From an uncultured Lachnospiraceae bacterium (lineage in GTDB: Bacteria > Bacillota > Clostridia > Lachnospirales > Lachnospiraceae), in NCBI GenBank assembly GCA_947631625.1, contig CANRMA010000012.1, positions 1 to 64,000 of the forward strand: a DNA stretch of 64,000 nt, in the 5' to 3' direction. Numbering within the stretch: the stretch's first letter is position 1; each line of letters begins with the position of its first letter. A model generated the notes under the pieces. The model was given only the letters and a program-made list of their open reading frames with translations, had not been told where the DNA came from and made no database searches. The position numbers and the translations under genes were made by a program. Below are positions 25,950 through 55,971 of this stretch, one piece after another.

Positions 25950-26100
25950 GAAGCCGCCGCGAGGGTTTAACAGACCAATGCAGGCCCGCTTTCGCTACGT
26001 CTCACCTGCAGCGGCGCTAAGCTCGAAAATACCTCGCTAAGTGCCGGCGGGTTCAAAGTGCCTGCGTTTGGTATGTTAAACCCTCGCGGCGGCGGCTTAC
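25950..26100. mobile_element. Palindromic intergenic element A (MITE-like)
   Basis: About 150 bases fold into one long imperfect hairpin. The outer arms AAGCCGCCGCGAGGGTTTAA and its complement are at 25951-25970 and around 26077-26098; GCAGGC/GCCTGC lies further in. The tip holds CTAAGCTCGAAAATACCTCG, shared almost exactly with the element at 55.8 kb read in reverse. In the arm, GTTTAACA/TGTTAAAC replaces the ATTTAACA/TGTTAAAT of the other copies, a paired change that keeps the hairpin. It sits between coaX and coaBC. No direct flanking repeat was found. Confidence 0.8.
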
Positions 26101-26170
26101 GGTTAAGACTTAATTTGAACATTATTTAATCATTAATTTTATTAATTTGCGTATATGATAAGTGTGCGGC

Positions 26171-26941
26171 TCATGGCTCAACATTCTTATTGTATATTAC
26201 ATACAGCCCTTTAAGAGTCAGCTCGTTGTCGTGTATTATCTCTTTTTTGCAGTGCGGAACTATGCAGCCTGCAAGTCCGCCTGTGGCTACGACTTTGGTT
26301 TCATAGCCAAGCTCTTCCCAGATGCGCTCAAGCATTCCGTCTATGCTTGCGGCCTGAGCTATTATGATGCCGCTTTTCATGCAGTCGATGGTGTTTCTGC
26401 CTATTACTTTCTTGGGCGCTTCCAGACTTATCCTCGGAAGCTGTGAGGTACGGTTTACCAGAGATTCCAGCGATACCTTGACGCCGGGGATTATCTGTCC
26501 GCCGATATAATTTTTCTTATCGTCCACCACGCTTATGGTAGTAGCGGTTCCCATATCTATCATTATGATCGGCGCGCCGTAGTATTTAAGCCCCGCCACA
26601 GCATTGACTATCAAGTCGGAGCCTACCTGCGCCGGATTGTCCATAAGTATGTTGAGTCCGGTCCTGACTCCCGGCCCCACCAAAAGCGGCGTAATGCGCA
26701 AAAGCTTCTCCATTGAAGCTTTGACGATATTATTGAGAGGAGGCACTACGGAGGCGATGATACAGCCACTGATATCCTCGATTTTAATATTATAAAGATC
26801 CAAAAGAGTCTTAAACTTCACTACATATTCGAGTTCCGTATTGGAAATATCTGTGGAGACTCTTTCCACAAAATATATTTTTTCCTGCTCTATGCAGCCT
26901 ATTACTATGTTTGTATTGCCTATATCGATCGCAAGTATCAT
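26171..26941 (-). CDS. coaX: Type III pantothenate kinase
   Basis: The ASKHA-fold protein of 256 residues starts MILAIDIGNTNIVIGCI with the phosphate-binding Asp. It has GPGVRTGLNILMDNPAQVGSD, the pantothenate-binding stretch, then MIDMGTATTISVVDDKKNYIGGQIIPGV and ATGGLAGCI. It phosphorylates pantothenate, the first committed step to CoA, and type III enzymes are typically insensitive to CoA feedback. It follows the ECF S component by 19 bases on the same strand, so uptake and phosphorylation of pantothenate are encoded together. Confidence 0.96.
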   Translation of the reverse strand: MILAIDIGNTNIVIGCIEQEKIYFVERVSTDISNTELEYVVKFKTLLDLYNIKIEDISGCIIASVVPPLNNIVKASMEKLLRITPLLVGPGVRTGLNILMDNPAQVGSDLIVNAVAGLKYYGAPIIMIDMGTATTISVVDDKKNYIGGQIIPGVKVSLESLVNRTSQLPRISLEAPKKVIGRNTIDCMKSGIIIAQAASIDGMLERIWEELGYETKVVATGGLAGCIVPHCKKEIIHDNELTLKGLYVIYNKNVEP

Positions 26942-26960
26942 CGCCGCAGCCTCCGCTCTG

Positions 26961-27794
26961 TTATTTATTTTTTACCGGTTCTTTCACGGGTTTTACCCTG
27001 ATAAGCGCCAGTCCCACGCCCGCCACGATGATCGCGGCGACTACGGCCTCTATGACGCCGTTAAAACTCACAACGCCCATAATGGTGTCAAAAACGGCCT
27101 CGCCCGCGATACCGAGAGCCTGCGCGTACGCATCTTTATATAAGATAAAGATACCGCTCATTACAAAAAGGGTATTGGTGAACGCGCCGAAAAGTCCTGC
27201 GTAAGCAAGCGCTATATTGGCTGTGGACTTTTTACGCCCGTATAAAGTAAGCAGCGCAAATAAAATAACGCCCGTTATCAATCCTATTATGATACTTAAT
27301 GCGCCGGAGCCGCCGTCCGAGGCCAACATTCGATTTAAAAATAAATATACGGATATAAATAAAATGAGGGACGCCGCAAGATTAACAACAACATTCCACA
27401 CTTTCTGTCCGCCTTTTAAAAGGCTGCGGATCAGAAGATACACATAGTACGGAACTATTCCAACCAGTATTCTTGGCACAAAGCATATATAAAGGCTCTT
27501 AAAAATACCGGATACGCCTACTATATTGGCGGCAAGCACCGGCGAAAATACAAACGCCGACGGCGTGGCCGCTTTAAAGGTGTTGTTGATAAAACTTGTC
27601 AATCCGAATACGAAACCTAAGAATGCGCCTTTCTTCGGTCCGAGAAATAGCGCTCCCAGGATTACCGGAATGTGGATTATAGTTGCATTGATGACAACCA
27701 AAGGGATATACCCCAGTGGCGTGAAGGCCATTATTATTATAATGGCGGTGAAGAGTGCCGTCAGCACAAGTTCATAAGTCTTTTCATTTTTCAT
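26961..27794 (-). CDS. ECF transporter S component, probably for pantothenate (277 aa)
   Basis: AGGAGGAAACGTACC precedes the ATG at 27792-27794, which begins MKNEKTYELVLTALFTAIIIIM; a long in-frame extension upstream crosses the promoter and is rejected. Six or so membrane helices follow, with the pattern IPLVVINATIIHIPVILGALFLGPKKGAFLGFVFGL typical of ECF substrate-binding subunits. The energy-coupling module (EcfA/A'/T) is not here and would be shared. The neighbours coaX and coaBC point to pantothenate (PanT-like); the substrate is an inference from context. Confidence 0.88.
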   Translation of the reverse strand: MKNEKTYELVLTALFTAIIIIMAFTPLGYIPLVVINATIIHIPVILGALFLGPKKGAFLGFVFGLTSFINNTFKAATPSAFVFSPVLAANIVGVSGIFKSLYICFVPRILVGIVPYYVYLLIRSLLKGGQKVWNVVVNLAASLILFISVYLFLNRMLASDGGSGALSIIIGLITGVILFALLTLYGRKKSTANIALAYAGLFGAFTNTLFVMSGIFILYKDAYAQALGIAGEAVFDTIMGVVSFNGVIEAVVAAIIVAGVGLALIRVKPVKEPVKNK

Positions 27795-27845
27795 GGTACG
27801 TTTCCTCCTGTTATTATTCTCTAAATCGAGATACAATACAGTTAA

Positions 27846-27874
27846 ATAATACCATACATATAATTTATTTACAA
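27846..27874 (-). promoter_or_regulatory. Promoter of the ECF S component-coaX transcript
   Basis: On the minus strand, -35 TTGTAA (27869-27874) and -10 TATTAT (27846-27851) are 17 bases apart, about 50 bases upstream of the start codon. Confidence 0.65.
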
Positions 27875-27914
27875 GATTAGCGGCAAAAAATACACCCGCC
27901 CAAAAATACACCGA

Positions 27915-28622
27915 TCAGCCGCCCAGATACGCTTTGCGTACCGTATCGTCCTTAAGAAGCTCGTCTCCCGTTCCCATATTGACGATACGCCCGGTTTCAA
28001 GCACATAGCTTCTGTGCGCTATGGAAAGCGCCATCTGCGCGTTCTGCTCTACAAGAAGTATGGTGGTGCCCGCCTTGTTAAGCTCCTCTATTATCTGGAA
28101 TATCTTTTCTACCAGAATAGGCGCAAGGCCCATAGAAGGCTCATCCAACATCATAAGCTTGGGCTTGGACATAAGCGCCCTGCCCATGGCAAGCATCTGC
28201 TGCTCGCCGCCCGAAAGCGTACCCGCAATCTGCTTATATCTTTCTTTAAGTCTCGGAAAACGGTCGTAAACATCCGCTATAAGATCCGCGATTTCCGCCG
28301 AGGAGCGTGTGTAGGCGCCCATTTCCAGGTTTTCCTGTACCGAAAGCTGCAAAAAGATCCTTCTGCCTTCCGGACACAGCGCCATGCCGCGGTTTACTAT
28401 TTTATGCGCAGGAACTCCAAGCAGGGAGCTTCCTTCAAACTCAACGCTGCCGGTCGCAGGCTTGAGCAGTCCTGCCACGGTATTTAAAGTCGTCGATTTA
28501 CCCGCGCCGTTTGCGCCGATAAGGGTCACTATCTCCCCTTCGTTTACCTCAAAGGAGATGCCTTTTATAGCATGAATGTTACCGTAATATACATTGATAT
28601 CCTCAACCTTTAACATACTCAT
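27915..28622 (-). CDS. livF: Branched-chain amino acid ABC transporter ATPase LivF
   Basis: The 235-residue ATPase has Walker A GANGAGKSTTLN, the Q-loop region NRGMALCPEGRRIFLQLSVQENLEMGA typical of LivF, signature LSGGEQQMLAMGRALM, Walker B LMMLDEPSMGLAP and the H-loop in LLVEQNAQMAL. AGGAGGTTAAGCC precedes the ATG, and the start overlaps the livG stop (ATGA). It powers the LivHM permease with LivG. Confidence 0.95.
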   Translation of the reverse strand: MSMLKVEDINVYYGNIHAIKGISFEVNEGEIVTLIGANGAGKSTTLNTVAGLLKPATGSVEFEGSSLLGVPAHKIVNRGMALCPEGRRIFLQLSVQENLEMGAYTRSSAEIADLIADVYDRFPRLKERYKQIAGTLSGGEQQMLAMGRALMSKPKLMMLDEPSMGLAPILVEKIFQIIEELNKAGTTILLVEQNAQMALSIAHRSYVLETGRIVNMGTGDELLKDDTVRKAYLGG

Positions 28623-29416
28623 GGCTTAACCTCCTTTTTCTTACCCAGATAAGCCTCGATGACCTGAGGGTTGTTCTGTATCTGCGACGGATTTCCCTTG
28701 GCTATTATCCTGCCGAAATTAAGCACCGCTATGCCTTCGCAGATGCCCATTACCAGACTCATATCATGCTCTATAAGAAGTACTGCGATATGGAACTGAT
28801 CCCTTATCTTACGGATATTCTCCATAAGCTCCGCGGTTTCCGATGGATTCATTCCGGCCGCCGGTTCATCAAGCAGAAGTATCTTGGGCTGCGTTGCAAG
28901 CGCGCGAACGATCTCCAGCCTTCTCTGCGCGCCGTAGGGAAGCGAACCTGCGGTTACGTCGGCCAGATCCTGCATATCAAATATGGACAGAAGTTCAAGC
29001 GCTTTTTCATGGCTTTTCTTTTCCTCGCTCCAATATTTCGGCAGCCTGAAAATACCGCTCCACATATTGTAATCGGTATGATTGTGCAATCCTATCTTGA
29101 CATTGTCTTCCACGCTCAGCTTGTCAAAAAGCCTTATATTCTGGAAAGTACGCGCTATTCCGGCGCGGTTCACCTGAATGGTGTTCATACCCTCGGTATC
29201 TTTCCCGTCCAGAATTATCCTGCCCCTTCCGGGCTGATAGACCTTCGTAAGAAGGTTGAAAATAGTGGTCTTTCCGGCGCCGTTAGGCCCGATAAGCCCC
29301 GCTATCTCGGTTTTGGCTATGGATATGCTGAAATCGTCCACGGCGGTCAGACCGCCGAAATCTATTCCTAAATGTGAAACCTCAAGTACAGGTCTGTTAT
29401 CTTTTTCGTTACTCAT
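28619..29416 (-). CDS. livG: Branched-chain amino acid ABC transporter ATPase LivG
   Basis: The ATG at 29414-29416 follows AAAGGAGCAGGGTGT. The protein (265 residues) has Walker A GPNGAGKTTIFNLLTKVY, the LivG-specific ARTFQNIRLFDKLSVEDNVKIG, a somewhat changed signature (LPYGAQRRLEIVRAL, with YGAQ instead of SGGQ as is usual in LivG), Walker B ILLLDEPAAGMNPSE and the H-loop LLIEHDMSLVM. It pairs with LivF on the cytoplasmic face. Confidence 0.95.
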   Translation of the reverse strand: MSNEKDNRPVLEVSHLGIDFGGLTAVDDFSISIAKTEIAGLIGPNGAGKTTIFNLLTKVYQPGRGRIILDGKDTEGMNTIQVNRAGIARTFQNIRLFDKLSVEDNVKIGLHNHTDYNMWSGIFRLPKYWSEEKKSHEKALELLSIFDMQDLADVTAGSLPYGAQRRLEIVRALATQPKILLLDEPAAGMNPSETAELMENIRKIRDQFHIAVLLIEHDMSLVMGICEGIAVLNFGRIIAKGNPSQIQNNPQVIEAYLGKKKEVKP

Positions 29417-29439
29417 ACACCCTGCTCCTTTCAAGCCCG

Positions 29440-30492
29440 CTACTCCTTAACAGCCGCTTTTTTGGTAAATCTGCCCGTAATACTGCCGATAAAGGCTTTG
29501 GCCTTGCTGTTATTGGTAATGATCATAACAAGAATCAACACTATTGCGTACACTAACATACGATAATCCTGGAACTGTCTCAAAAGCTCCGGAAGTACGG
29601 TAAGTATGGCCGCCGCTATTATCGAACCGCGCAGATTGCCTATACCTCCGAGAACTACAAATACCAAAATAAGTATAGATGTATTAAAATCAAACTTCTT
29701 GGGAACTACGGTTGAATAATTAAGCGCGTATAACGCTCCCGCCGCCCCTGCCATGGCCGCAGATACCACGAAGGCCATCATTTTATATTTCATTATATTA
29801 AGTCCACAGGATTCGGCCGCTATCCTGTTGTCGCGGATAGCTTTGATAGCGCGTCCCGCGCGGCTGTTTACAAGATTTTGTATTATAAAAAGAACGATAA
29901 GCACCAGAATGACCGCGCTTAAAAAGGTGGATATCTTCTGAATCCCAAGCGCGCCCATAGGCCCGTTGATTATTACCGTTCCTCCGGGTTCCATATTAAG
30001 AGAATTACCGTCTTTCATGCTGAAATGCAGGCCGTTAGAGTCCGCGCCTATATAAAGACAGTTCAATATATTTTTGATTATCTCGCCAAAAGCAAGCGTT
30101 ACTATTGCAAGATAGTCTCCTTGAAGACGAAGCACCGGAAAACCGATGATAACGCCTGTCACAGCTGCGAGCAGAGCTCCTGTGATTATTGCAATCATAA
30201 GTCTTAAAGGAGCGGCCGTGACTGAATTTTGAAGCGAGACCGCCGCCACCACGCCGCTGAAAGCCCCCACGCTCATAAAGCCCGCATGTCCGAGGCTCAA
30301 TTCGCCGGATATGCCGACTACCAGATTAAGCGCAAGCGCCATAACAACATAAGTACAAATAGGGATCAACTGACCCGATAACGAACTGCTCAGTTTACCC
30401 GCAGAAGACAATACCTGAAAAATAACAAAAAACACTATGACTATTCCGTAATTTATAAAACTGCTTCGTGCACTTTTTGACATTTTTTTCAT
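29440..30492 (-). CDS. livM: Branched-chain amino acid ABC transporter permease LivM
   Basis: The start at 30492 (MKKMSKSARSSF) is about 8 bases after AGGTG; upstream ATGs at 30498 and 30516 lie on or before that site. The 350-residue membrane protein has about ten helices and the family motifs ALALNLVVGISGELSLGHAGFMSVGAF, GFPVLRLQGDYLAIVTLAFGEI and the EAA-like NSRAGRAIKAIRDNRIAAESCGLNIMKYKM. It forms the translocation path with LivH, whose stop it overlaps or adjoins. Confidence 0.94.
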   Translation of the reverse strand: MKKMSKSARSSFINYGIVIVFFVIFQVLSSAGKLSSSLSGQLIPICTYVVMALALNLVVGISGELSLGHAGFMSVGAFSGVVAAVSLQNSVTAAPLRLMIAIITGALLAAVTGVIIGFPVLRLQGDYLAIVTLAFGEIIKNILNCLYIGADSNGLHFSMKDGNSLNMEPGGTVIINGPMGALGIQKISTFLSAVILVLIVLFIIQNLVNSRAGRAIKAIRDNRIAAESCGLNIMKYKMMAFVVSAAMAGAAGALYALNYSTVVPKKFDFNTSILILVFVVLGGIGNLRGSIIAAAILTVLPELLRQFQDYRMLVYAIVLILVMIITNNSKAKAFIGSITGRFTKKAAVKE

Positions 30493-30502
30493 AACCATGC
30501 AC

Positions 30503-31372
30503 CTACACTTTCTCATTGACTTTTTTGCCCATAAGTCCCGTAGGTTTCACAAGCAATATAAGAATCAGAACCGAAAACACGATAGCATCGGATAATTGTG
30601 TGGAAATATACGCTTTACCGAATATTTCTATTATGCCGAGCAGGATACCGCCGAGCATGGCGCCCGGAATTGAACCGATACCGCCGAATACCGCAGCGGT
30701 AAACGCCTTGATACCGGGCATGGCGCCCGTTGTAGGCATAAGAGTGGGATAGGCCGAACAAAGCAATACACCTGCAATAGCAGCAAGGCCGGAACCTATC
30801 GCAAAAGTTAAGGAAATGGTCGCGTCAACATTTATACCCATAAGTCTTGCAGCATCCTTATCCTCAGACACCGCGCGCATTGCCTTTCCCATTTTCGTTT
30901 TACCGGTGAATAAAGTAAGCGCTATCATGATAACGATACAGGCCGCAATCGTAACAAGAGCCACCGACGAAATCTGAAGCCCGCCTATCACAAGCGGCGG
31001 AAGCGTGACCATATTAGGGAATGACTTGGGATTGGAAGTCCAGATGATAAGCGCGATATTCTGCAAAAAGTATGAAACGCCGATCGCAGTGATCAAAACC
31101 GCAAGGGAACTGGCATTCCTGAGCGGCTTATACGCCAGTCTTTCTATGACTATTCCAAGCACTATACATACAACCACCGAAGCAAGCACACAGAAAAGCA
31201 CAGGCCAGCCAAGATAACTCGTGGCGCAATAAGCCACATAACCGCCTATCATAATGACATCTCCATGCGCGAAGTTAAGCATTTTCGCTATACCGTATAC
31301 CATTGTATAACCAAGCGCTATTATCGCATATACGCTTCCAAGACTTATACCGTTTATCAGATAATTTAACAT
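30503..31372 (-). CDS. livH: Branched-chain amino acid ABC transporter permease LivH
   Basis: GGGGGATAAAT precedes the ATG. The 289-residue protein has about eight helices and the LivH signatures NGISLGSVYAIIALGYTMVYGIAKMLNFAHGDVIMIGGY at the N-terminus and GKAMRAVSEDKDAARLMGINVDATI in the cytoplasmic loop. It lies about 130 bases after livJ, behind a partial terminator. Confidence 0.95.
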   Translation of the reverse strand: MLNYLINGISLGSVYAIIALGYTMVYGIAKMLNFAHGDVIMIGGYVAYCATSYLGWPVLFCVLASVVVCIVLGIVIERLAYKPLRNASSLAVLITAIGVSYFLQNIALIIWTSNPKSFPNMVTLPPLVIGGLQISSVALVTIAACIVIMIALTLFTGKTKMGKAMRAVSEDKDAARLMGINVDATISLTFAIGSGLAAIAGVLLCSAYPTLMPTTGAMPGIKAFTAAVFGGIGSIPGAMLGGILLGIIEIFGKAYISTQLSDAIVFSVLILILLVKPTGLMGKKVNEKV

Positions 31373-31459
31373 ATTTATCCCCCGTTCTTACCCAGCCTGC
31401 AGACTCATTATCAAAAAGATCCATGCTTTTTGATGTATGCAGAGTAAGCATAAATTTAC

Positions 31460-31493
31460 AAAAGGGACTGCCATCACGAGACAGCCCCTTTAA
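31460..31493 (-). terminator. Partial terminator between livJ and livH
   Basis: On the minus strand AAAGGGGCTG pairs with CAGTCCCTTT (one wobble) and is followed by TTTTGT. It lies just after the livJ stop. It probably lets only some transcripts continue into livHMGF, giving excess binding protein, a usual pattern in such operons (inference). Confidence 0.75.
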
Positions 31494-31504
31494 CTTCATA
31501 AAGT

Positions 31505-32824
31505 TTACAGACCTACATATACACCGTTTTCAATAACAACAGCTTTGGGAGCCTTATTGACTTCGCCTGCCGCCGTCCAGGTCATTCCTGAACCTGTAAC
31601 ACCGTCTACCGTGAAAGCAGGATCGGTAAATACCGATATAAGGATATCGCAAAGTTCTTCATAGCCCATTCCGTCTACGTTAAGTCCGCCGTTGTTGGCT
31701 GCATAGTATTTAAGAGCTTCATAGATCGCATAAGGGCAGTCATAACCGTCTGCTGCGAACTGTGAAGGTGTTTCACTGTTAGCTGACTCATACTTGGATA
31801 CAAATGAAGATGTAAGCTCATCAGTTGCATCGGCAGAGAAAGGAGTAAGCAGCATAACGCCTTCTGCAAGAGAGGTATCAAAGCCCTCAAGAGAAAGGAT
31901 ACCGTCCATACCGTCTACGCCGAACAGCTTGACATCATAGCTCATATCCGCCGCCTGTTTCATGATCAGAGAAGCGGGCGTATAGTAAATAGGCAGGAAG
32001 ATAAGTTCCGCGCCTGCATTCTGAGCTTCAGTAAGCTGAACCGAGAAATCGTTTGCAGTATCATCAGTAAATGTTGTTGTTGAAACAACTTCAAGACCAA
32101 GCGTATCAGCCTGCGCCTGGAAAGTCTGATAGATACCTGTTGAGTATGCATCTGCGTTATTGTAGATAACTGCTACTTTCTCAGCAAGCTTGTTATCGAA
32201 GATATACTGCGCCGACGCTGAACCCTGGTTAGGATCAGAGAAGCAAAGCTGGAATACATTGTCATTTCCCTCTGTTACGGAAGTCGCCGAAGCTGAAGGC
32301 GTAAGCATGAACATACGGTCTGCATATGCTTCCGCTGCAACTGCGACACAGGGAGTTGTGGTAACACAGCCTATGATAGCCTGAGCGCCCCAGTCTTTAA
32401 GATTATTGTAAGCATTAACTGATTTCTCAGCGTCATGCTCGTCATCCTGCGCATTTAACTCGATCTGGAAATCTGCGCTTTCTGCATTGATCTCTTCTAC
32501 CGCGATCTGAGAACCGTTGTCTACCGCATTACCGTAAAGAGCAGCCGCGCCCGTAAGAGGACCTACAACGCCAAGCTTAAGTGTTCCCGTAAGAGAACCG
32601 CCTTCTCCTGACGCATCCGCATTTGTATCTGCTGCGGCGTCTGTCGCAGCATCTGTTGTGGTGTCTGCCGCGGCGTCTGTCGTAGTATCTGTTGCGGCAT
32701 CTGTCGCAGTATCTGTTGTGGTGTCTGCCGTATCTGCGCTTGATGAATCAGCAGAACCGCCGCAGGCTGTCAGCGAGCAGATCATTGCCGCCGACAAAAG
32801 AACTGCAAGTAACTTTCTTTTCAT
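31505..32824 (-). CDS. livJ: Branched-chain amino acid ABC transporter substrate-binding lipoprotein LivJ/LivK
   Basis: GGAGGAGATTATT precedes the ATG at 32822-32824. A signal peptide ends in LTAC, with Cys21 as lipid anchor. Residues 22-75 are an unusual low-complexity linker of Asp/Thr/Ala (DTATDAATDTTTDAA type) encoded by degenerate tandem DNA repeats near 32630-32740. The periplasmic-binding-protein type I domain follows (LKLGVVGPLTGAAALYGNAV, GCVTTTPCVAVAAEAYADRM, SASATSVT). It captures Leu/Ile/Val or a related amino acid at the outer membrane face and hands it to LivHM. The substrate is inferred from the family. Confidence 0.94.
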   Translation of the reverse strand: MKRKLLAVLLSAAMICSLTACGGSADSSSADTADTTTDTATDAATDTTTDAAADTTTDAATDAAADTNADASGEGGSLTGTLKLGVVGPLTGAAALYGNAVDNGSQIAVEEINAESADFQIELNAQDDEHDAEKSVNAYNNLKDWGAQAIIGCVTTTPCVAVAAEAYADRMFMLTPSASATSVTEGNDNVFQLCFSDPNQGSASAQYIFDNKLAEKVAVIYNNADAYSTGIYQTFQAQADTLGLEVVSTTTFTDDTANDFSVQLTEAQNAGAELIFLPIYYTPASLIMKQAADMSYDVKLFGVDGMDGILSLEGFDTSLAEGVMLLTPFSADATDELTSSFVSKYESANSETPSQFAADGYDCPYAIYEALKYYAANNGGLNVDGMGYEELCDILISVFTDPAFTVDGVTGSGMTWTAAGEVNKAPKAVVIENGVYVGL

Positions 32825-32858
32825 AATAATCTCCTCCATTATTAAAAAATATTTTTAC

Positions 32859-32900
32859 AAAAAATGACCTTCCCTCTAATTAAATTAATGAGAAAGTCAT
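32859..32900 (-). terminator. Terminator-like hairpin in the livJ leader
   Basis: On the minus strand ATGACTTTCTC pairs with GAGGGAAGGTCAT through GC, AU and GU pairs and is followed by about six T. It lies between the livJ promoter and start codon, so it could attenuate livJ. No aptamer or T-box sequence fits in the short leader ahead of it. Confidence 0.7.
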
Positions 32901-32926
32901 CTTTGACCTTATAATTGTATACAAGT

Positions 32927-32955
32927 ATATTAGGACAGTTTTATACATTTGTCAA
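32927..32955 (-). promoter_or_regulatory. Strong promoter of the liv operon
   Basis: On the minus strand, a consensus -35 TTGACA (32950-32955) is 17 bases from -10 TAATAT (32927-32932). It is about 100 bases upstream of livJ. Confidence 0.85.
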
Positions 32956-32963
32956 TAAAAAGT

Positions 32964-33011
32964 TTTAGGTTTGGTTTACCGGGTTTGGTCTCAACCGGTT
33001 CTGGTCTCAAC
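32964..33011. repeat. Tandem 16-base repeat downstream of the ABC exporter
   Basis: Three units, the last two CGGGTTTGGTCTCAAC (32980-32995) and CGGTTCTGGTCTCAAC (32996-33011), lie about 30 bases after the exporter stop codon. Confidence 0.85.
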
Positions 33012-33041
33012 TAAAGCCCTGATGTTTCAGTGAATGATCTT

Positions 33042-36700: not shown

Positions 36701-36904
36701 CCCTGCTCTCTTATTTTCTTTTACCTTAATTTACCGTTATCTTTTAGCATTGACCAAATAAATATTAATGTCAATACCATACTCAAAAAATTTATAAAAT
36801 TTTATAAAAAATTTATAAGACTAAAGAAAAGGAAGCTGCCATACAACGAATTTTCATCAAATATTGTCCTTTGGGAGACTTTAATTTAGATAGGAATGAG
36901 GGTT
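36701..36904. other. AT-rich upstream region of the ABC exporter genes
   Basis: The gap between the exporter and the tRNAs holds a TTGACA on the minus strand (36769-36774) with no good -10 at standard spacing, and an AT-rich run (36775-36825) of repeated TTTATAAAATTT-like sequence. No gene is seen. Confidence 0.4.
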
Positions 36905-36974
36905 GTTGACCGAGAGCTGTTTACCGAAGCTAATTGTCCGAGAGCTGTTGACCGAGAGTTGTTGACCGGATAAG
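36905..36974. repeat. Tandem 14-base repeat
   Basis: Five units of the type GTTGACCGAGAGCT lie end to end (36905, 36919, 36933, 36947, 36961) just after the tRNA terminator in the minus-strand sense. Second and third units are the most diverged. Confidence 0.95.
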
Positions 36975-36997
36975 GGCGTTAAATGCAGGAACGGGAA

Positions 36998-37039: not shown

Positions 37040-37053
37040 ATCTTTTTAGGCAA

Positions 37054-37127: not shown

Positions 37128-37134
37128 ATATAAA

Positions 37135-37207: not shown

Positions 37208-37251
37208 ATTTCATCATTGATGAGGCTGTCCAAATCACAGCCCGCTTTGTT

Positions 37252-39241: not shown

Positions 39242-39498
39242 TAAATTCAGGTATTTATAGGTAATTGCGAAACTCTGATTTACGTCTTTAAGATTGTGCA
39301 GATTTAACAAAACCCTTGCAGGCACGCTTGCGCTGCATTGAGTCTCGCAACGGTACTAAAGCTGCAAAATACGCAGCTTAAGTACAAACGCAAATTCTTT
39401 GCGTTGCGGCCTCAGAGCGCCTGCAATGGTGTTTGTTAAATCTGTACAATCAATATACGTTGAAAGATAGTTTCGAAATCACTAAATTCAGATATTTA
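39242..39498. mobile_element. Palindromic intergenic element B with flanking 16-base direct repeats
   Basis: The element (about 39258-39482) begins GTAATTGCGAAACTCT and ends with the near-complement AGTTTCGAAATC. Inward it carries CAGATTTAAC, then GCAGGCACGCTTGCGCTGCA, and the core GTACTAAAGCTGC-AAAATAC-GCAGCTTAAGTAC, followed by the matching half. It aligns along its length with the element at 55.8 kb read in reverse. Flanks are TAAATTCAGGTATTTA (39242-39257) and TAAATTCAGATATTTA (39483-39498), 15 of 16 identical, like a target-site duplication. It lies in the argS-queH gap. Confidence 0.85.
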
Positions 39499-39557
39499 GA
39501 CAATGCAAAACCCTGTCCAAAGCGTTTCGCCTAAAATCCCTGCTTCCAACATCGTAA

Positions 39558-39685
39558 GAAGCAAATATAATGTTGCGCGGGGCCCTATGCAGGCGCCGGT
39601 CCTTAGGCTGCGTACTTTGCAGCCTTAGTAACGCTGCGCCGGAGTTGGAGCGCAAGCGCGCCCCGCACAACATTATATTTGCTTC
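39558..39685. mobile_element. Palindromic intergenic element C
   Basis: A hairpin of about 128 bases with outer arms GAAGCAAATATAATGTTG and its complement CAACATTATATTTGCTTC, then CGCGGGGC/GCCCCGC. The tip, on the minus strand, is ACTAAGGCTGC-AAAGTAC-GCAGCCTAAG, the same core as element B. Part of the flank of the core (CGCTTGCGCT, and CGCCTGCA) also matches B, but the outer arms are unrelated. It lies 59 bases beyond B and ends at the queH repeat. Confidence 0.8.
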
Positions 39686-43751: not shown

Positions 43752-43752
43752 C

Positions 43753-44937: not shown

Positions 44938-45004
44938 TTCGTTACCTGCTTTCTGTATGTATAGTCTGTTGTAAAGTTTTTGGGGCGAATTGAATGGTAC
45001 GAAT

Positions 45005-48841: not shown

Positions 48842-48930
48842 ATTAAGCCAAGCCCTCCATTTTTTTATGAAACAAACGATGTAAAATCGTTATTCTTACT
48901 GCTTACCGTCAAGTTCAGTCAAAATATATT

Positions 48931-48958
48931 AAAAGATGCCCCCTTCTTTGGAAGCATC
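48931..48958 (-). terminator. Terminator after the TetR gene
   Basis: On the minus strand GATGC(TTCC) pairs with (GGGG)GCATC around AAAGAA, followed by TTTT. It lies just downstream of the TetR stop and upstream of purL. Confidence 0.7.
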
Positions 48959-48969
48959 CTCTATTCAAA

Positions 48970-49548
48970 TTACTCTATAATAAGTCCCTGCATTATGTAA
49001 AACAACTGTTCATCCACCATCGACTCCGTGATCCCTATTGTCTGCGAATTGATCTTCATGCCTTCCAAAACGTACATGATATTCTGCGCCGCGCCCTTTG
49101 GATTTTCACAGTAAAATTCACCCGACGCGATGCCTGTCTCTATAAGTTTCTCTATTACTTTCACTCCGGCGTCAAACTGCTTGCGCAGCATTGCGTTTTT
49201 CTTTTCTTTTTCGGAAAAAGAATACTCGTACACGGCCATTGTGAGATTGTTCTTTTTGAGTAAAAGTTCCTTCTTCTGTTCTTTAAAAAATAAAGTCAGT
49301 ATATTGGCGGCCGAAGCTTCCTCGGCAATCTTTCTGGCGACAGCGTCGTCCGTCTCATCATTGTCCTGCTTTAAAAGTTCAAGCAGCAGTTCTTCTTTGT
49401 TATTGAAATATAAATACAGGCCCCCGCGGCTGATATCGCAAGCCTCCACGATATCTTTCATGGTAACGCCCGTATAACCTTTTTCCGAAAAAATCCTGCG
49501 CGCCGCTTCCAGTATATGCTGTTTCTTCTGTAAAGATTTCTCTCCCAT
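48970..49548 (-). CDS. TetR-family transcriptional regulator (192 aa)
   Basis: The N-terminal helix-turn-helix is clear: ILEAARRIFSEKGYTGVTMKDIVEACDISRGGLYLYFNNKEELLLELL. The C-terminal helical domain is typical in length. GGCAGGTAAGTT precedes the ATG, 3 bases after the stop of the upstream unknown gene, so the two are co-transcribed. The target is unknown; the divergent 754-residue gene nearby is a candidate. No clear palindromic operator was found in the shared gap. Confidence 0.94.
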   Translation of the reverse strand: MGEKSLQKKQHILEAARRIFSEKGYTGVTMKDIVEACDISRGGLYLYFNNKEELLLELLKQDNDETDDAVARKIAEEASAANILTLFFKEQKKELLLKKNNLTMAVYEYSFSEKEKKNAMLRKQFDAGVKVIEKLIETGIASGEFYCENPKGAAQNIMYVLEGMKINSQTIGITESMVDEQLFYIMQGLIIE

Positions 49549-49551
49549 AAC

Positions 49552-50031
49552 TTACCTGCCTTGTAACATTGGTTTATCCCAAAATTCCAGATTTTCTTTC
49601 ATCTTCCGTATACATTCCAGAAATACCCGGTCTTTTACCGCATCTGACCATAGCTTTCCTTTGGTCATGCCGCCCATTACATACCTGGAAAGAATGCCTT
49701 TTATCACGTCCATATGCATAATGTCTGCCTGCGATATCGCTCTCATCTCATCCGCAAGAGTCCTGATCTTGTGTCTGGAATAGATATATTGATAATTACG
49801 GTCCAAAAGAGTCGTACGCTGCACTTCCTTGATAAAACCAAGAAGAGTGGAGTCATAGACCGGAAACGGAATGGAATTCTCGCCTATGCCTGAGTCGGTA
49901 AAATTCTTGGATACGCTTGAGCCGGCCTTCTCTTCAAGCCACGGGAGATAACGTATGAGCCGCTCCACATCGGGCCTGTATTCTTCTACGACCTGCTTTC
50001 TGTATTCAATATCTTCCAATTCCATTTTCAT
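49552..50031 (-). CDS. Uncharacterised protein (159 aa), possibly DUF6508-like
   Basis: The frame extends upstream to 50055 through a TTG, but the first ATG is at 50029-50031 (MKMELEDIEYRKQVV). The ribosome binding site is weak. The protein is soluble and mixed alpha/beta: RPDVERLIRYLPWLEEKAG, then FPVYDSTLLGFIKEVQRTTLLDRNYQYIYSRHKIRT, and a helical C-terminal half with SRYVMGGMTKGKLW. The pattern of a small domain with Leu-Pro-Trp-Leu and Pro-x-Tyr followed by a helix recalls DUF6508, but I am not sure. It is cotranscribed with the TetR gene. Confidence 0.75.
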   Translation of the reverse strand: MKMELEDIEYRKQVVEEYRPDVERLIRYLPWLEEKAGSSVSKNFTDSGIGENSIPFPVYDSTLLGFIKEVQRTTLLDRNYQYIYSRHKIRTLADEMRAISQADIMHMDVIKGILSRYVMGGMTKGKLWSDAVKDRVFLECIRKMKENLEFWDKPMLQGR

Positions 50032-50124
50032 ATAAAAACCGCGCCCTTCGATCAATTTACGGCCGGAGCCTGAATTTATTTTATCATATTTCTTAGAAAA
50101 GTACAGTATAAAATGTTCAAATTC

Positions 50125-50153
50125 TTGTAATTATTATCAAAACGGCTTATAAT
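50125..50153 (+). promoter_or_regulatory. Promoter of the 754-residue gene
   Basis: -35 TTGTAA (50125-50130) and -10 TATAAT (50148-50153) are spaced 17 bases, leaving a leader of about 90 bases before the start codon. Confidence 0.7.
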
Positions 50154-50251
50154 ATAATTTAATCAAACAGGGAACCGTTATCGAATGTTCCGTATTTAGT
50201 CAGACTATACAAAAGCGATGTCCAAAAAAATGAGAAAGGCATGGTATTAAT

Positions 50252-52516
50252 ATGGCAGTAAAAGAATATCCGGCAGGAACCGTAATGATCCAGAGCGAAC
50301 ATACGCTGAACGCTCTGCATGTTATAGTAAAAGGTTCCGTGCGCGCCTCATATCCCGGAGGCGAACTTTATTTACATAAGGGCGACGTAATGGGAATATG
50401 CGAATTAAACTACGATACACATTTCATCAACTATCAGGCGGTTGAAGACACTGCCCTGGCCGCTTATCCCTGCACGGAGAAACAGCTTACCCAGATCATC
50501 CGCACCAAGCCGGATCTTTGTAATATTATCGTCAATTCGCTGTTTAAACAGCTGCATGAAATACTCGACCAGTACGAAATGTCAAAATTCGACTGCGATA
50601 CTTTTTATCAATATCTGATGAAAAGCTATGAGGAATACTGCAGGTTTACTTCCAAACACTCTCTGGCAGCCAGGATACTTCCCGAGCTTGATTCAGTGAC
50701 CGAACTTGTTCTGGAAGAAGACATACCCGACTGGGTGGCCAAATATTACGAACAGCTTTACAGAATAGCCAAAAGCATTTCCTCCAAGTCGCAGATCGCA
50801 GACTTTATATACGGAATGATCTTAAAGGCAAGCTCTGACGTACACCGCGTATTATCGATATGCCGTGAAATTTATGACTACAAATCGGAGATACTTAAAT
50901 TTTTAATGAACGAAAACCGTCTGGACTTTTTTGATCTGTATGCAAGCGTTCTGTATAAGATCGGCGCTCACGACGAAGACTCCACTGCCATCACCGCCGC
51001 GCTCGGCACTATGATGATACAGCTTGAAAGTCAGGATTCCATAAACAGGGAAATGTATAACAGCCGCGTGGCGGAATATAAGGCAAAACTAAACGACCTT
51101 GAAGAATCAACGGAAGCTCCTACGGCGGACCAGTCTTCGGAATCCGTTAAGCAGGAACTCAAAGATTCGCTGAATATAATACTTGCATACGCCGAATGCG
51201 ATAAGGAAACGACCGACGGCTTCAGGGAAAGCATAGACAAGTTCCGCAAGCTTTCCGACAAAAACGCTACAGACGACCATGCAAGGAAGCTGCGCATGGC
51301 CATCACCAAAAATTTCTACAAGATATATTCGGCCGCTTTTATGAAGAGCCTTACGGACACCAAAGTGCCAAGAATAGTAAAAATGTTCTTCAATTTCGGC
51401 TATGTTGACGAAGACCTTGCCGGACTCGAAAACGCGGCTTACCTCTATACAATAGTCGATTCGCTGCCAAGCGATCCTTCCCGCGGCGTGTATACGGTCT
51501 ATGAATGGCTTACCGCGGTATACGAGGGCCGCAAAGTTCCAAGCCGCAACGAATTTGACAACGACTATCCGGCGTATGTGCGCGAGTTAAAGATCACAGG
51601 CAAGATCGCAGCAGCCGACGAAGCAAAGATGTTGAGCGATAAAAAAGAACAGGTGCTTTTCGAACTTCACAATATGGTAACAAGCGTTAATAAAATGACG
51701 TTCGGGCGCATAAGCATATTCAGCCCTATCTTTTTGGAGAGCAACATCTTAAAAGATCTGGAAAACACTCTGGTTTCCGCGGATACAGTTGAAAAATCGT
51801 TTAAAAATATATGTTCTACCGACTACGGCGCGTATTACAGGGAAACACTCTATACCAACCCCTCTATCGGCGTAGGCAAGGAAAATATCGACGTGGAGAT
51901 CCTGCCGGACGTCATACTTATGCCCAACGTCGGCGTCCGCGGCGTTATGTGGCAGGAGATCGAAGGCCGCAAACGTACCTCGCCCGCTCGTATGATGGTC
52001 TCGATTTTCGAAATGGAAGACTTAAACAATATTCTGGTACGCCTGACCGGCGAATACCGTTGGGAAATGTGCAAACGTATCCAGGGCGCAAGGTGGAACG
52101 ACGTATCCGAACCTTCGCTTACTAGCGAATACTTCGACTATATTCAGTTCTATAAGAAAAACAGAGAACTGTCCGCTGACGCCAAAGACAAGATCAAGCT
52201 CAGCATGCAGAAAGCCAAAAACAGCTTTAAAGAAATGTTCGTGCGTGATTACGAAGCATGGATACTCTACGAAGGCGCAGGCTCGCCCAGACTCAACAAA
52301 GTCGCGCGCACCATTTTGTTCACGCACTGTCCGTTTTCCAAGGAAATACGTACCAAGCTTAAGATAAATCCGCTCTATAAAGAAATGATGGACAGATACG
52401 ATATCAAGCTGTCACAGAGAGTACGGCATATGGATAATCTGTGCAACAAAGTTAAGCAAAACGGCGCTGAGATCCCTGAGGAACTGGTGAAGCAGAGGGA
52501 GTATCTGCTGATGTGA
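50252..52516 (+). CDS. Large protein with an N-terminal cyclic-nucleotide-binding-like domain (754 aa)
   Basis: Residues about 5-110 follow the beta-roll of cNMP-binding domains (YPAGTVMIQSEHTLNALHVIVKGSVRASYPGGELYLHKGDVMGICELN), but the phosphate-binding cassette lacks the usual Arg, so nucleotide binding is doubtful. The remaining 640 residues are mostly helical, soluble and without a helix-turn-helix, membrane segment or enzyme motif that I recognise; a conserved-looking core spans about 480-640 (EGRKRTSPARMMVSIFEMEDLNNILVRLTGEYRWEMCKRIQGARW). GAAAGG precedes the ATG at some distance. It is monocistronic, with its own promoter and terminator. Function unknown. Confidence 0.88.
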   Translation: MAVKEYPAGTVMIQSEHTLNALHVIVKGSVRASYPGGELYLHKGDVMGICELNYDTHFINYQAVEDTALAAYPCTEKQLTQIIRTKPDLCNIIVNSLFKQLHEILDQYEMSKFDCDTFYQYLMKSYEEYCRFTSKHSLAARILPELDSVTELVLEEDIPDWVAKYYEQLYRIAKSISSKSQIADFIYGMILKASSDVHRVLSICREIYDYKSEILKFLMNENRLDFFDLYASVLYKIGAHDEDSTAITAALGTMMIQLESQDSINREMYNSRVAEYKAKLNDLEESTEAPTADQSSESVKQELKDSLNIILAYAECDKETTDGFRESIDKFRKLSDKNATDDHARKLRMAITKNFYKIYSAAFMKSLTDTKVPRIVKMFFNFGYVDEDLAGLENAAYLYTIVDSLPSDPSRGVYTVYEWLTAVYEGRKVPSRNEFDNDYPAYVRELKITGKIAAADEAKMLSDKKEQVLFELHNMVTSVNKMTFGRISIFSPIFLESNILKDLENTLVSADTVEKSFKNICSTDYGAYYRETLYTNPSIGVGKENIDVEILPDVILMPNVGVRGVMWQEIEGRKRTSPARMMVSIFEMEDLNNILVRLTGEYRWEMCKRIQGARWNDVSEPSLTSEYFDYIQFYKKNRELSADAKDKIKLSMQKAKNSFKEMFVRDYEAWILYEGAGSPRLNKVARTILFTHCPFSKEIRTKLKINPLYKEMMDRYDIKLSQRVRHMDNLCNKVKQNGAEIPEELVKQREYLLM

Positions 52517-52580
52517 TGATGTAATAATGTAATGATGCTATGATATAATGATGCGATAATAAAGTAATGATGCGATGAAT
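52515..52580. repeat. Irregular short repeat after the stop of the 754-residue gene
   Basis: The segment is built from TAATGATG, TGATGATG and TGCGATAA-like words, beginning in the stop codon itself. Units are too irregular to fix a period. Confidence 0.6.
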
Positions 52581-52586
52581 TTAGTT

Positions 52587-52635
52587 AAAAGGGGGTATCA
52601 TAAATGCGGAAGACGAGCTTTTGTACCCCCTTTTT
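52587..52635. terminator. Bidirectional terminator
   Basis: AAAAGGGGGTA (52587-52597) pairs with TACCCCCTTTTT (52624-52635). It ends the plus-strand 754-residue gene and the minus-strand ATPase gene. Confidence 0.92.
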
Positions 52636-52644
52636 ATTTGTCTG

Positions 52645-53964
52645 TCATTCTTCAAGCAGCCACTCAATCAGGTTTTCAGACTTAATCCCCTCATATGAGT
52701 TATCCGGTCCGGAATCAAGCGACAACACAATCTTTTCATAGTTGTCCCGTATTTTTTGCAGCGGAGCAAGTTCGCGCTTTCTTACATCCTCACTGTTCAT
52801 GGATTCTGTCACCTGAATGTATTTCTTCTCATTAACGGTAGTTGCAATGAAATCAACCTCTGCGTTATCGATCTTACCAATCGCAACATCATATCCCCTG
52901 CGAATCAGTTCAAAATAAACGACATTCTCAATTGCATGGCCGCTGTCGCGATCTCGGAAGCCCAACAAATAATTTCTCATTGCTATGTCAACAATATAGT
53001 ATTTACCCAGTGTGCGAAGGTACTCTTTCCCTTTGATGTCGAACCGCTTGATCTCATAGAAAAAGTAGCTTTCAAGCAGCGCGTTGACATATGCCTGAAC
53101 AGTGTGCGCGCTCGGTGTGCCTTTTCTCCTTCCATCATCAAGAAGACCTTCATTCACTAAAGTATTGCCTATGGACGCAATGGAAACACTCGAACCGATG
53201 TTGTCTGCAAGGAACATTATGATCTTGCGAAGCAGTATTGGATCGGTAATCCGTTTCTGCCCCCGGCGCTTTTCACGTTCCAGAATATCACGAACTATGA
53301 CAGTAGAATAGATACCGTCAAGCAGAGAAAAAGCTTTTTCCTGATTAAGACCGACGTCGGCAATACCGGGCATCCCGCCGAAACGCATAAATGCTTCAAA
53401 GGCCTCCCGCAGTTCGTAGCGTTCACCGTTTTTATCAAACATCTGTTTACGGACGCCGCCAAAAGCGCTCTCTATTTCCCTCACTTCAAAATTATGAAAA
53501 TAAAGGAACTCACTGAAAGAAAGCGGCAGCATCTTGATCTCAACACATCTGCCGGAAAGATAGGTAGAATATTCGGAGGAAAGCAGGTAAGCATTGGAAC
53601 CGGTTACATAGATATCACAGTCCACGTCCACACGCAAAGCATTTATCGAATCCTCCCATGCGTCAATCCTTTGTATCTCATCGAAAAATAAATACATCCG
53701 CTTTCCCGACACTATTCGTTTTTTGACATAGTCGTAGATATCGTCAGAAGTCATTTTACGAAAATCATTAGACTCAAAGTTCATCTCAACGATCTGCTCC
53801 GACCGGACACCTGTTTCCGTCAAATGAGCGACCATAAGTTTCAAAAGGCTTGATTTACCACAGCGCCTTATGCCGGTGATAACCTTTACAGGTTCAGTGT
53901 CCTGAAAGCCCACAAGCTTATTGAGGTAACGATCTCTTTTTTTCAGTTTGTGCGATTCTATCAT
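52645..53964 (-). CDS. AAA ATPase of the DUF4143 family (439 aa)
   Basis: AGGAGGAATACGCT precedes the ATG at 53962-53964. The P-loop domain has Walker A ITGIRRCGKSSLLKLM, Walker B RMYLFFDEIQRIDAWE, sensor region IYVTGSNAYLLSSEYSTYLSGR and the AAA_14 continuation MLPLSFSEFLYF. The C-terminal DUF4143 part has NIGSSVSIASIGNTL, YVNALLESYFFYEIKRFD, and a restriction-endonuclease-like GYDVAIGKIDNAEVDFIATTVNEKKYIQV. Such proteins are very common in anaerobes, often in many copies; their role is unknown, though a nuclease or ATPase switch has been suggested. It is monocistronic. Confidence 0.94.
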   Translation of the reverse strand: MIESHKLKKRDRYLNKLVGFQDTEPVKVITGIRRCGKSSLLKLMVAHLTETGVRSEQIVEMNFESNDFRKMTSDDIYDYVKKRIVSGKRMYLFFDEIQRIDAWEDSINALRVDVDCDIYVTGSNAYLLSSEYSTYLSGRCVEIKMLPLSFSEFLYFHNFEVREIESAFGGVRKQMFDKNGERYELREAFEAFMRFGGMPGIADVGLNQEKAFSLLDGIYSTVIVRDILEREKRRGQKRITDPILLRKIIMFLADNIGSSVSIASIGNTLVNEGLLDDGRRKGTPSAHTVQAYVNALLESYFFYEIKRFDIKGKEYLRTLGKYYIVDIAMRNYLLGFRDRDSGHAIENVVYFELIRRGYDVAIGKIDNAEVDFIATTVNEKKYIQVTESMNSEDVRKRELAPLQKIRDNYEKIVLSLDSGPDNSYEGIKSENLIEWLLEE

Positions 53965-53987
53965 AGCGTATTCCTCCTGTTGCATAT

Positions 53988-54035
53988 AGGATAGCATAAA
54001 CTTATAAAAAAATCAACTTTTTGCACTAAAGTGCA
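53988..54035 (-). promoter_or_regulatory. Promoter and possible operator of the DUF4143 ATPase gene
   Basis: On the minus strand, -35 TTGATT (54011-54016) and -10 TATCCT (53988-53993) are 17 bases apart. Directly upstream is a palindrome with arms TGCACT/AGTGCA around AA (54022-54035), a good size for a dimeric regulator site. Confidence 0.6.
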
Positions 54036-54041
54036 TAAACT

Positions 54042-54088
54042 AAAAAAAGAGCCTTCAGAGAAGATGCAATCTCTGAAAGCTCTTTTTT
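54042..54088. terminator. Strong terminator of the OFA transporter gene
   Basis: AAAAAAAGAGC and TTCAGAGA pair with TCTCTGAA and GCTCTTTTTTT, with one mismatched pair. T-runs on both strands make it bidirectional. It lies 14 bases after the transporter stop. Confidence 0.92.
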
Positions 54089-54101
54089 TATGCTCTTTAT
54101 T

Positions 54102-55382
54102 TTATGCTTTTTCTTTATTAGTAGGTTTCACCAATACAAGGCAGATCACAAGCGCCAGTATGTACAGAACTATTGTAGCATAGAGAACCGTCTGGTAGCC
54201 TGTGGGGTTTACCGTGATCAGCTCTGTCGTTCCGTCGGCAAGCGCATGTTCGATTTCTACGGGAGTGCCAAAATGGTTTACTATCCATGTCGCCATCTGG
54301 TTTCCGGTAAGACCTGCAAAAGCCCATGCCGAAAGGGTCAGACCATGTATCGCGCTGATGTTGCCCATACCGTAGTGGTCGGACAGAAGTGTCGGCACAT
54401 TGGAGAAGCCGCCGCCGTAACCTGCATTTACTACGAAAAGCAGACAGAGCACAAGGATCATCAACAAAGTGTTTCCTTCGCCGTTTTCGATACCTCTTGT
54501 GAGCATTACCGCGCCGGTAAATACTATTGAGAGGATAAATATAAGTTTATAGATAGTGTTTCTGTCTTTCATGGTATCAGCCCATGCTGAGAAACCAAGA
54601 CGTCCGCCTGCATTGAAGATAGCGGTGACTGTTGAAATGATTCCTACAAAGCTTGCAAGGCCGATACATTTTACTATCATCTTCTCCTGCGAGATAAGCG
54701 CAAGTCCGCAGGTGATGTTTATGTAGAACATAAGCCAGATACCAACATAGTTGGTAATGGGTTTGGTTTTGATAACCGACATGATGCTCTGTCTCTCCTC
54801 CTTGGACTGAGGTTCATGCCAGTCGTCGGGTTTTTTAAGAAGCAGATGTCCCACGAACATCATTACAAAATATACAACCGCCAGTATCCAGAACATTTTG
54901 TAGATACCGCCGTCTCCAAGATTGTCAAGCATACTCTGCATGATAGGGCTGGCAATAGCCTTGGCTGCGCCAAAACCAGCTACCGCAAGACCTGTTGCAA
55001 GACCTTTTCTGTCCTGAAACCAGAGCATCAGGGTTTTAACAGGCGATAAGTAACCGGTTCCAAGGCCGATACCCATGATAAAACCGTAGCATACATATAT
55101 TCCTACAAGTGAGAGCGTACTTGAGGGATTGTTTCCGCCATACCAGATGAAGAAACCCGTTCCCGCCATACCTAATGCAAAACATATGGCTGCAATAAGA
55201 GAAGATTTATGAATATCCTTCTCAACTACATTTCCCAGAAATGCCGCCGACATTCCGAGGAAGAAAATAGCGAAGCTGAACGCCCATTCGGTAGCTCCTT
55301 TGGTATGTCCGATGTAATCTGCTATTTCCTGGCTGAAAATCGACCAACAGTAAACTGTACCTATACTGCAGTGAAGCAGCAA
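54102..55382 (-). CDS. OFA-family major facilitator transporter (426 aa as readable frame), 5' end interrupted
   Basis: The protein has twelve predicted helices and the oxalate/formate antiporter family pattern: HCSIGTVYCWSIFSQEIAD, then GIGLGTGYLSPVKTLMLWFQDRKGLATGLAVAGFGAAK (the loop 4-5 motif) and NAGGRLGFSAWADTM. It would move a small carboxylate or similar anion across the membrane; the substrate is unknown. The first codon here is TTG inside helix 1. The same frame continues upstream to a good ATG at 55451 but is broken by TAG at 55419-55421. Either the gene is dead, starts weakly at this TTG, or the stop is suppressed. Confidence 0.85.
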   Translation of the reverse strand: MLLHCSIGTVYCWSIFSQEIADYIGHTKGATEWAFSFAIFFLGMSAAFLGNVVEKDIHKSSLIAAICFALGMAGTGFFIWYGGNNPSSTLSLVGIYVCYGFIMGIGLGTGYLSPVKTLMLWFQDRKGLATGLAVAGFGAAKAIASPIMQSMLDNLGDGGIYKMFWILAVVYFVMMFVGHLLLKKPDDWHEPQSKEERQSIMSVIKTKPITNYVGIWLMFYINITCGLALISQEKMIVKCIGLASFVGIISTVTAIFNAGGRLGFSAWADTMKDRNTIYKLIFILSIVFTGAVMLTRGIENGEGNTLLMILVLCLLFVVNAGYGGGFSNVPTLLSDHYGMGNISAIHGLTLSAWAFAGLTGNQMATWIVNHFGTPVEIEHALADGTTELITVNPTGYQTVLYATIVLYILALVICLVLVKPTNKEKA

Positions 55383-55451
55383 TGCCGGAACTGCCGCGCG
55401 TATCCACTTGTTATTGCGCTAGCCCCCCGTGTTGTTTGAATTCTTTTCCAT
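55383..55451 (-). other. Detached 5' end of the OFA transporter gene with an in-frame amber codon
   Basis: AAAGGAAGATGAATT precedes ATG at 55449-55451, which reads MEKNSNNTGG, then TAG (55421-55419), then RNNKWIRAAVPALLLHCSIG in the same frame into the transporter. The stop is codon 11, in the cytoplasmic tail before helix 1. A run of six G precedes it. The frame before and after is the same, so this is a nonsense change, not a frameshift. Confidence 0.85.
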
Positions 55452-55627
55452 AATTCATCTTCCTTTACGTCTTTTCGATTTTTGCATATTTACATCAAAA
55501 AACATGCGGAAATTTCGTACAAATACAGAGTAAAACGATCAACTCCGCATACTTTCTGCCATAAAATGCTAATATATACTTTACACCAAATAATCGTAAT
55601 TTTCAATATTTTTTAAAAAATATAATC
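55452..55627. other. Upstream region of the OFA transporter gene
   Basis: This part of the 600-base gap holds the likely transporter promoter and otherwise AT-rich sequence. No gene is seen; the rest of the gap is tandem repeat (55628-55728) and palindromic element (55736-55971). Confidence 0.5.
55578..55606 (-). promoter_or_regulatory. Probable promoter of the OFA transporter gene
   Basis: On the minus strand, -35 TTGAAA (55601-55606) and -10 TAAAGT (55578-55583) are 17 bases apart, about 125 bases upstream of the ATG at 55451. Confidence 0.5.
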
Positions 55628-55728
55628 TTATCAAAATATATCCTCATCGAAATATAATTCTCATTCAAATATAATCCTCATTCAAATATAATCCTCATTC
55701 AAATATAATCCTCATTCAAAATATATTC
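55628..55728. repeat. Tandem 17-base repeat
   Basis: Units TCATTCAAATATAATCC lie at 55661, 55678 and 55695 without change, with diverged units on both sides (from 55628 and to 55728), six in all. Confidence 0.95.
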
Positions 55729-55735
55729 TTCTCTA

Positions 55736-55971
55736 TATAATATATATAAATAAGTAATTGCGAAACTCTCTCTCAACGTATATTGATTGTACAGATTTAA
55801 CAAACACCATTGCAGGCGCTCTGAGCGCGTCGGCAGTTAGCGAGGTATTTTCGAGCTTAGTGCCGCTACTGCGCTCAATGCAGCGAAAGCGGCCTGCAAG
55901 GGTTTTGTTAAATCTGCACAATCTCAAAGATGTAAATCAGCGTTTCGCAATTGCCTATAATATATATAAAT
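55736..55971. mobile_element. Palindromic intergenic element D with perfect 16-base flanking direct repeats
   Basis: The element (55752-55955) starts GTAATTGCGAAACTCT and ends GTTTCGCAATTG, so it has inverted ends. Read on the minus strand it aligns with element B over both arms (TTTAACAAAACCCTTGCAGGC, CGCCTGCAATGGTGTTTGTT), and its core CTAAGCTCGAAAATACCTCG is that of element A. It is bounded by TATAATATATATAAAT at 55736-55751 and again at 55956-55971, identical over 16 bases. It lies downstream of the large surface protein. Confidence 0.88.

Follow-up and report, generated by a model that had tools for sequence, protein, structure and literature searches.

Dispersed palindromic elements of Lachnospiraceae with a conserved core and arms that may be rewritten from each other

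Four palindromes in the window (the whole stretch of 64,000 nucleotides analysed here) share one small centre and carry arms that differ between copies while staying self-complementary within each; the question raised by this locus is what these elements are, and by what process both halves of an arm pair come to change in step. They are considered to be non-autonomous palindromic DNA elements of Lachnospiraceae, of which two moved as MITEs and whose arms are rewritten by copying each other; this reading is given a probability of roughly 0.6. All four elements, A to D, are present at the places reported in a preliminary description of this DNA, and their features are as follows.

Element A, 25951..26098, plus strand: D-type tip at 26017-26037; outer arms AAGCCGCCGCGAGGGTTTAACA / TGTTAAACCCTCGCGGCGGCGGCTT; without MITE ends.
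Left target duplication of B, 39243..39259, no strand: AAATTCAGGTATTTATA.
Element B, 39258..39484, plus strand: MITE copy; G-type tip from 39356; ends GGTAATTGCGAAACT and AGTTTCGAAATCACT.
Right target duplication of B, 39484..39500, no strand: AAATTCAGATATTTAGA.
Element C, 39558..39685, minus strand: G-type tip at 39602-39628, the CTAAGG strand being the minus strand; locus-specific arms at 39558-39583 and 39660-39685.
Left target duplication of D, 55736..55751, no strand: 16 bp.
Element D, about 55752..55955, minus strand: MITE copy; D-type tip at 55840-55860; right end GGCAATTGCGAAAC, minus strand, at 55942-55955.
Right target duplication of D, 55956..55971, no strand: 16 bp, identical to the left one.

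The end coordinate given earlier, 55971, takes in the target duplication of D. As had been described, each element folds into one long hairpin and all four lie between predicted genes: A neighbours a pantothenate kinase and a coaBC-like flavoprotein, B and C occupy a single gap between queH and argS, and D neighbours an MFS gene and a 2306-aa ORF; the longest ATG frame within A-D is 20 aa, leaving them without an internal transposase gene. The arms quoted earlier are also borne out, ATTTAACA/TGTTAAAT in B and D and GTTTAACA/TGTTAAAC in A, and the outer arms of C are indeed different (26 nt, 96% complementary). The tip is common to all four; however, it is not perfectly palindromic. In B and C it reads CTAAG-GCTGC-AAAATAC-GCAGC-CTAAG (G-type), where by eye CTAAG is a direct repeat with an A.A mismatch around the tip, which is therefore not a perfect palindrome; in A and D it reads CTAAGCTCGAAAATACCTCGCTAA (D-type), where CTCG-AAAATAC-CTCG is by eye likewise a direct repeat. 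The four elements are not equals, as B and D are one MITE and A and C are the core set in other palindromic arms. Just upstream of D, at 55618-55725, a 17-bp unit forms a tandem array of 6.4 copies; the 2306-aa ORF (56054-62974, minus strand) has no Pfam match at E 0.001 and contains an internal 297-bp repeat at 58256-58876.

The assembly from which the window comes, termed here the own genome, is 81% complete and holds many further copies. The tip pattern CTAAGNNNNNAAARTAC occurs at 25 sites, against one with the reversed control; the G-type tip with one mismatch is found at 38 sites and the D-type tip with up to two mismatches at 34, against no control site in either case. Seventy own-genome copies were read with their flanks; the core is conserved, asymmetric and about 77 nt long, and ends in the 27-nt tip. 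The earlier claim of a dispersed family is upheld both by these tip counts, well above the reversed controls, and by covariance-model matches in the genus and the family. Besides A and C, the core sits between other arms in L028, L185, L195 and L207; the last (G000:C22) is a tandem triplet of D-type cores at 2666, 2809 and 2952, spaced by 143 bp and with shared other arms. Element B has an additional small hairpin within its 3' half, and a comparable addition, about 18 nt long and within the core's 3' half, is also present in L013, L015, L019, L193, L194, L197, L200 and L212; it is found with either tip type and looks like module exchange among copies.

B and D are copies of one MITE, about 210 bp long with ends GGYAATTGCGAAAC, which most own-genome copies share; the end motif occurs, with up to one mismatch, at 132 own-genome sites. 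Terminal inverted repeats are present at both ends of 50 own-genome copies, B and D included, and target duplications of 9-17 bp are indicated by the 27 of these 50 that score at least 8 as flanking direct repeats, compared with 15 of 977 permuted flank pairs. In strain CE91-St56, GATAAAA-type ends stand on both sides in 24 of the 30 copies read; one of the 24, with no recognised end, was dropped from the flank test, and the 9-bp flanks match at eight or more positions in 12/23 copies versus 1/506 permuted. The MITE interpretation of the preliminary description thus stands for B and D on their ends and target duplications; A and C have other arms and display neither recognised ends nor target duplications. 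An autonomous element with these ends was not found among the best 100 of the 132 end sites in the 81% complete own genome, nor at the CE91-St56 end sites or the other loci examined, and no transposase was found for the family. Carriage by phages or plasmids was rejected, as the probes used (one pattern against viral contigs; one copy each against plasmids, with two queries, and phages) had no match. Small palindromes of 60-101 bp with MITE ends and no core are present at L349, L350 and L351 (AP025576) and at L191:1956-2056. The letters TTTAACA/TGTTAAA of the elements may resemble the R boxes of integron attC sites, where the integrase recognises R/L boxes with extrahelical bases; by eye, they are not present in the CE91-St56 copies.

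The core covariance model R1, built without D-type rows, matches 73/77 genomes of the genus at E 0.01. Across the Lachnospiraceae it matches at least 70/397 genomes, in 63/334 genera, at E 1e-6, a lower bound because just 15 candidates per genome were scored; the named hosts among the matches listed include Eisenbergiella tayi, Acetatifactor, Lachnoclostridium and strain CE91-St56. Two forms occur: a long form, which is the core in long arms as in the window copies, and a short form, a hairpin some 65 nt long whose arms are characteristic of the genome it is in. The long form lies inside predicted ORFs in 5/53 cases and shows no preferred direction with respect to genes (19 S,S; 4 S,A; 9 A,S; 8 A,A). 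At the queH-argS site, one relative (G060) carries an oppositely oriented long form whose arms differ, and another (G061) is empty, with a spacer of about 76 nt and no palindrome; from this spacer, the arms most likely arrived with the element, loss in G061 being possible at this one site.

The short form is placed after stop codons. None of its 75 distinct copies lies inside a predicted ORF; 55 of the 64 with both neighbours stand between two same-direction genes (the rest being 6 A,S, 2 S,A and 1 A,A), with counts of 36, 4, 1 and 1, in the same order, at named loci, where convergent pairs make up 57/412 of the background. The distance from stop to tip is -4 to +19 nt in 45/59 short forms. 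A second hairpin follows in 70/71 cases by a simple energy cut; an intrinsic terminator was rejected, a run of at least five T within 20-85 nt being present in just 9/71. Ten orthologous gene groups carry the short form in two or more loci, with differing arms in several; by Pfam they include hydroxyacyl-CoA dehydrogenase, SecA, the carbamoyl-phosphate synthase small chain, TsaD, a transport permease, a flagellar rod protein and a penicillin-binding protein, and by eye ribosomal protein S11. The idea that the short form is strictly kept at a given orthologous site was rejected, as the strict tip is present at 4 of the 59 rpsK ends read and others have variants or other hairpins. In many of these 59 related species (L352-L410), a hairpin of varying sequence directly follows the rpsK stop, the CTAAG tip being one kind of several. 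At L216 (G080:C48), the short form comes right after the stop of each of several tandem paralogous genes of about 2.6 kb (260-309, 3079-3128, 5660-5709, 8434-8483), one of which is a solute-binding protein by Pfam; an interpretation of this locus as a gene-cassette array was rejected on that arrangement. In some short forms (L088, L169), a further hairpin replaces the bulge, which may be compared with structured RNAs with variable extensions. The short form is taken to be a separate use of this tip, perhaps at the mRNA level, and the shared tip is the sole link between the two forms.

The arms of the long form, which reach about 140 nt (L176), are closely self-complementary and may diverge completely between copies. 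Of 14 names given for E. tayi, 9 passed filters, and the outer-arm test was made on 8; the ninth, L115, has an arm displaced by an insertion and had given 0.62 in the nine-copy comparison. Over the outer 57 nt, self-complementarity within a copy is 98% (minimum 89%) and likeness between copies 43%, versus 38% when shuffled; the nine copies agree at 90% over the 77-nt core. It is for E. tayi that wholly unrelated arms are documented here; the arms of CE91-St56 copies are 78% alike, and the MITE arms of the own genome resemble each other. The best complement of a left arm is the right arm of the same copy in 9/9 E. tayi, 22/26 CE91-St56 and 20/24 other-genome copies, the last with a median complementarity of only 0.72 over a 60-nt span that many of their arms do not fill. 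Among 18 close copies from CE91-St56 (1363 arm cells), 77 cells changed on both sides and still pair, against 2.6 expected by independence; 39 changed on one side, and 7 changed on both without pairing. Covariation was assessed by pair counts with shuffled and slid controls in three alignments: 51 of the 70 own-genome copies (A3); 10 CE91-St56 copies, one of them shortened, separate from the 18-copy count (A4); and 47 of 56 distinct short forms (A5), from which rows whose bulge is absent or displaced were left out, along with certain other rows. Pairing exceeds both controls in all three, so the earlier claim of paired changes above chance is confirmed; in A3 all five pair measures exceed 500/500 shuffles and all slid controls, and A5 shows no rise in one of the five, further pair types. 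Of the own-genome copies, 57 could be oriented and 13 could not; two of the 57 (L012, L037) have a core that is flipped with respect to their outer arms.

From the observed family, copy number, ends, duplications, paired changes and inverted cores, the following course of events is proposed. A family of palindromic non-autonomous elements would have formed round the conserved, asymmetric core and its tip; a transposase made elsewhere, whose existence and type we infer, would have recognised the terminal inverted repeats of B and D and inserted them into AT-rich targets with duplication of 9-17 bp, and A and C would hold the core within palindromic arms of other kinds. Throughout the family, the core would stay constant and the arms vary with both halves in step, as one arm could serve as template for the other, either by polymerase template switching at replication or by copying of a folded single strand. 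Such copying would perfect the arms again, let a mutation reach both halves in one event and occasionally flip the core; template switching between inverted-repeat arms is described in PMC8604942 as homogenising the arms and inverting spacers. It is possible, though the odds are judged to lie somewhat against so broad a statement, that the Lachnospiraceae harbour mobile palindromes with a fixed centre and arms continually rewritten from each other, yielding copies within one genome that have unrelated near-perfect arms, and that the same 27-nt centre serves in a sense-oriented hairpin right after the stop codon of many genes, one recognised tip being common to a mobile element and an mRNA element of the host.

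The preliminary description offered two readings of the paired changes, selection on the folded form or copying through a hairpin, of which copying is favoured here and folded-RNA selection fits less well. If a hairpin of RNA or extruded DNA were functional, independent mutations in one arm would be compensated in the opposite arm; this would agree with pairing above every shuffle in three alignments, with the conserved tip and core between copies, and with the sense orientation of the short form just after stop codons, as in an mRNA element. An RNA fold should clearly favour G.U; however, G.U is not in clear excess over A.C either in the long arms (48 G.U, 37 A.C and 103 other mismatches in 42 copies, 3534 cells) or in the short forms (15, 18 and 99 in 47 copies), which argues against maintenance of the fold as RNA. 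Transversions, which have no wobble intermediate, make up half of the paired changes (21 transversion and 19 transition pairs among 40 distinct changes), and this, like the inverted cores, argues for copying; the lack of orientation preference in the long form and the short-form measure that is not raised also count against selection, which is considered rather unlikely overall. The 39 one-sided changes in CE91-St56 are counter-evidence to arm copying, and hairpin selection at the DNA level could likewise yield paired arms without a G.U bias. Why the arms of different copies should be unrelated is accounted for by neither copying nor selection on its own; new sequence may have been captured.

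Two further alternatives concern the origin of the arms and the mode of movement. Were the core inserted into pre-existing palindromes such as terminators, the arms would be those of the target, as the site-specific arms of A, C, L028, L195 and L207 and the runs of T after L195 might suggest; this is disfavoured by the element-free G061 site with no palindrome and by arm length, as many arms of 60-140 nt far exceed terminator stems, and by the arms in CE91-St56, which form a single family whose differences are paired; such insertion is quite improbable. Movement of a REP-like element by a Y1 (TnpA-REP/IS200-type) transposase that acts on a single-stranded hairpin would be in keeping with numerous dispersed small hairpins, a conserved stem mismatch and genome-specific short-form arms. 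The Y1 family PF01797 is, however, present in 30/77 genomes and absent from the own genome and from G007, G017, G021, G048, G049, G051, G066 and G082, each with 41-62 model matches; no GTAG foot motif was seen by eye in the 47 aligned short forms, and the terminal inverted repeats and target duplications of the long form indicate double-strand transposition. The REP-like option of the preliminary description, taken as REP/RAYT movement, was rejected on this Y1 distribution and is considered very improbable. Arm-to-arm copying remains the favoured reading.

A known RNA family was also rejected: no element has an Rfam match at gathering score, the window yielding two tRNAs only and 15 loci a single lysine riboswitch that lies apart from the elements; near B and C, one microRNA match falls below threshold. 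In the open-access literature searched, no description of a named family was found, in agreement with the earlier statement that none with this core was known; further copies exist, covariation is above chance and no described family matches in these searches. If the arms are indeed rewritten from each other, mutation alone would here produce the paired substitutions that usually serve to prove a functional fold; this would be a caution for covariation methods, and the family would be a natural system in which to measure template switching at long bacterial palindromes. The occurrence of one tip in mobile elements and in post-stop hairpins across many genomes of a gut family points to a recognising protein or process.

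The family may be compared with several known systems. A microbiome survey of structured RNAs (PMC8040213) lists 250 palindromic candidates, among which the short form might figure. Correia/NEMIS, ERIC and RUP elements (PMC2229807) are similarly small, non-coding and intergenic, with terminal inverted repeats, target duplications, long stem-loops and presumed movement in trans; unlike them, the present family has a 27-nt tip conserved across a bacterial family, target duplications longer than TA and long self-complementary arms that are unrelated between copies in E. tayi. The Rickettsia palindromic elements of the same source are also dispersed palindromic repeats (105-146 bp), however they are known from protein-coding genes, in contrast to the rarity of predicted-ORF locations here (0/75 short and 5/53 long forms). 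REP/BIME sequences with TnpA-REP (PMC8266576) share high-copy intergenic hairpins, a stem irregularity and frequent proximity to gene ends; they differ in that the family described here has no matching Y1 distribution, no GTAG seen, terminal inverted repeats with target duplications in the long form and an almost exclusively sense-oriented short form. Also comparable are template-switched inverted repeats (PMC8604942) and the mitochondrial palindromes of Nematomorpha (PMC6649704), which keep near-perfect arms while the sequence changes, with spacer inversion reported in the former, comparable to the inverted cores; those systems are single loci or mitochondrial genes, whereas the elements of the Lachnospiraceae are a dispersed mobile family with a fixed core.
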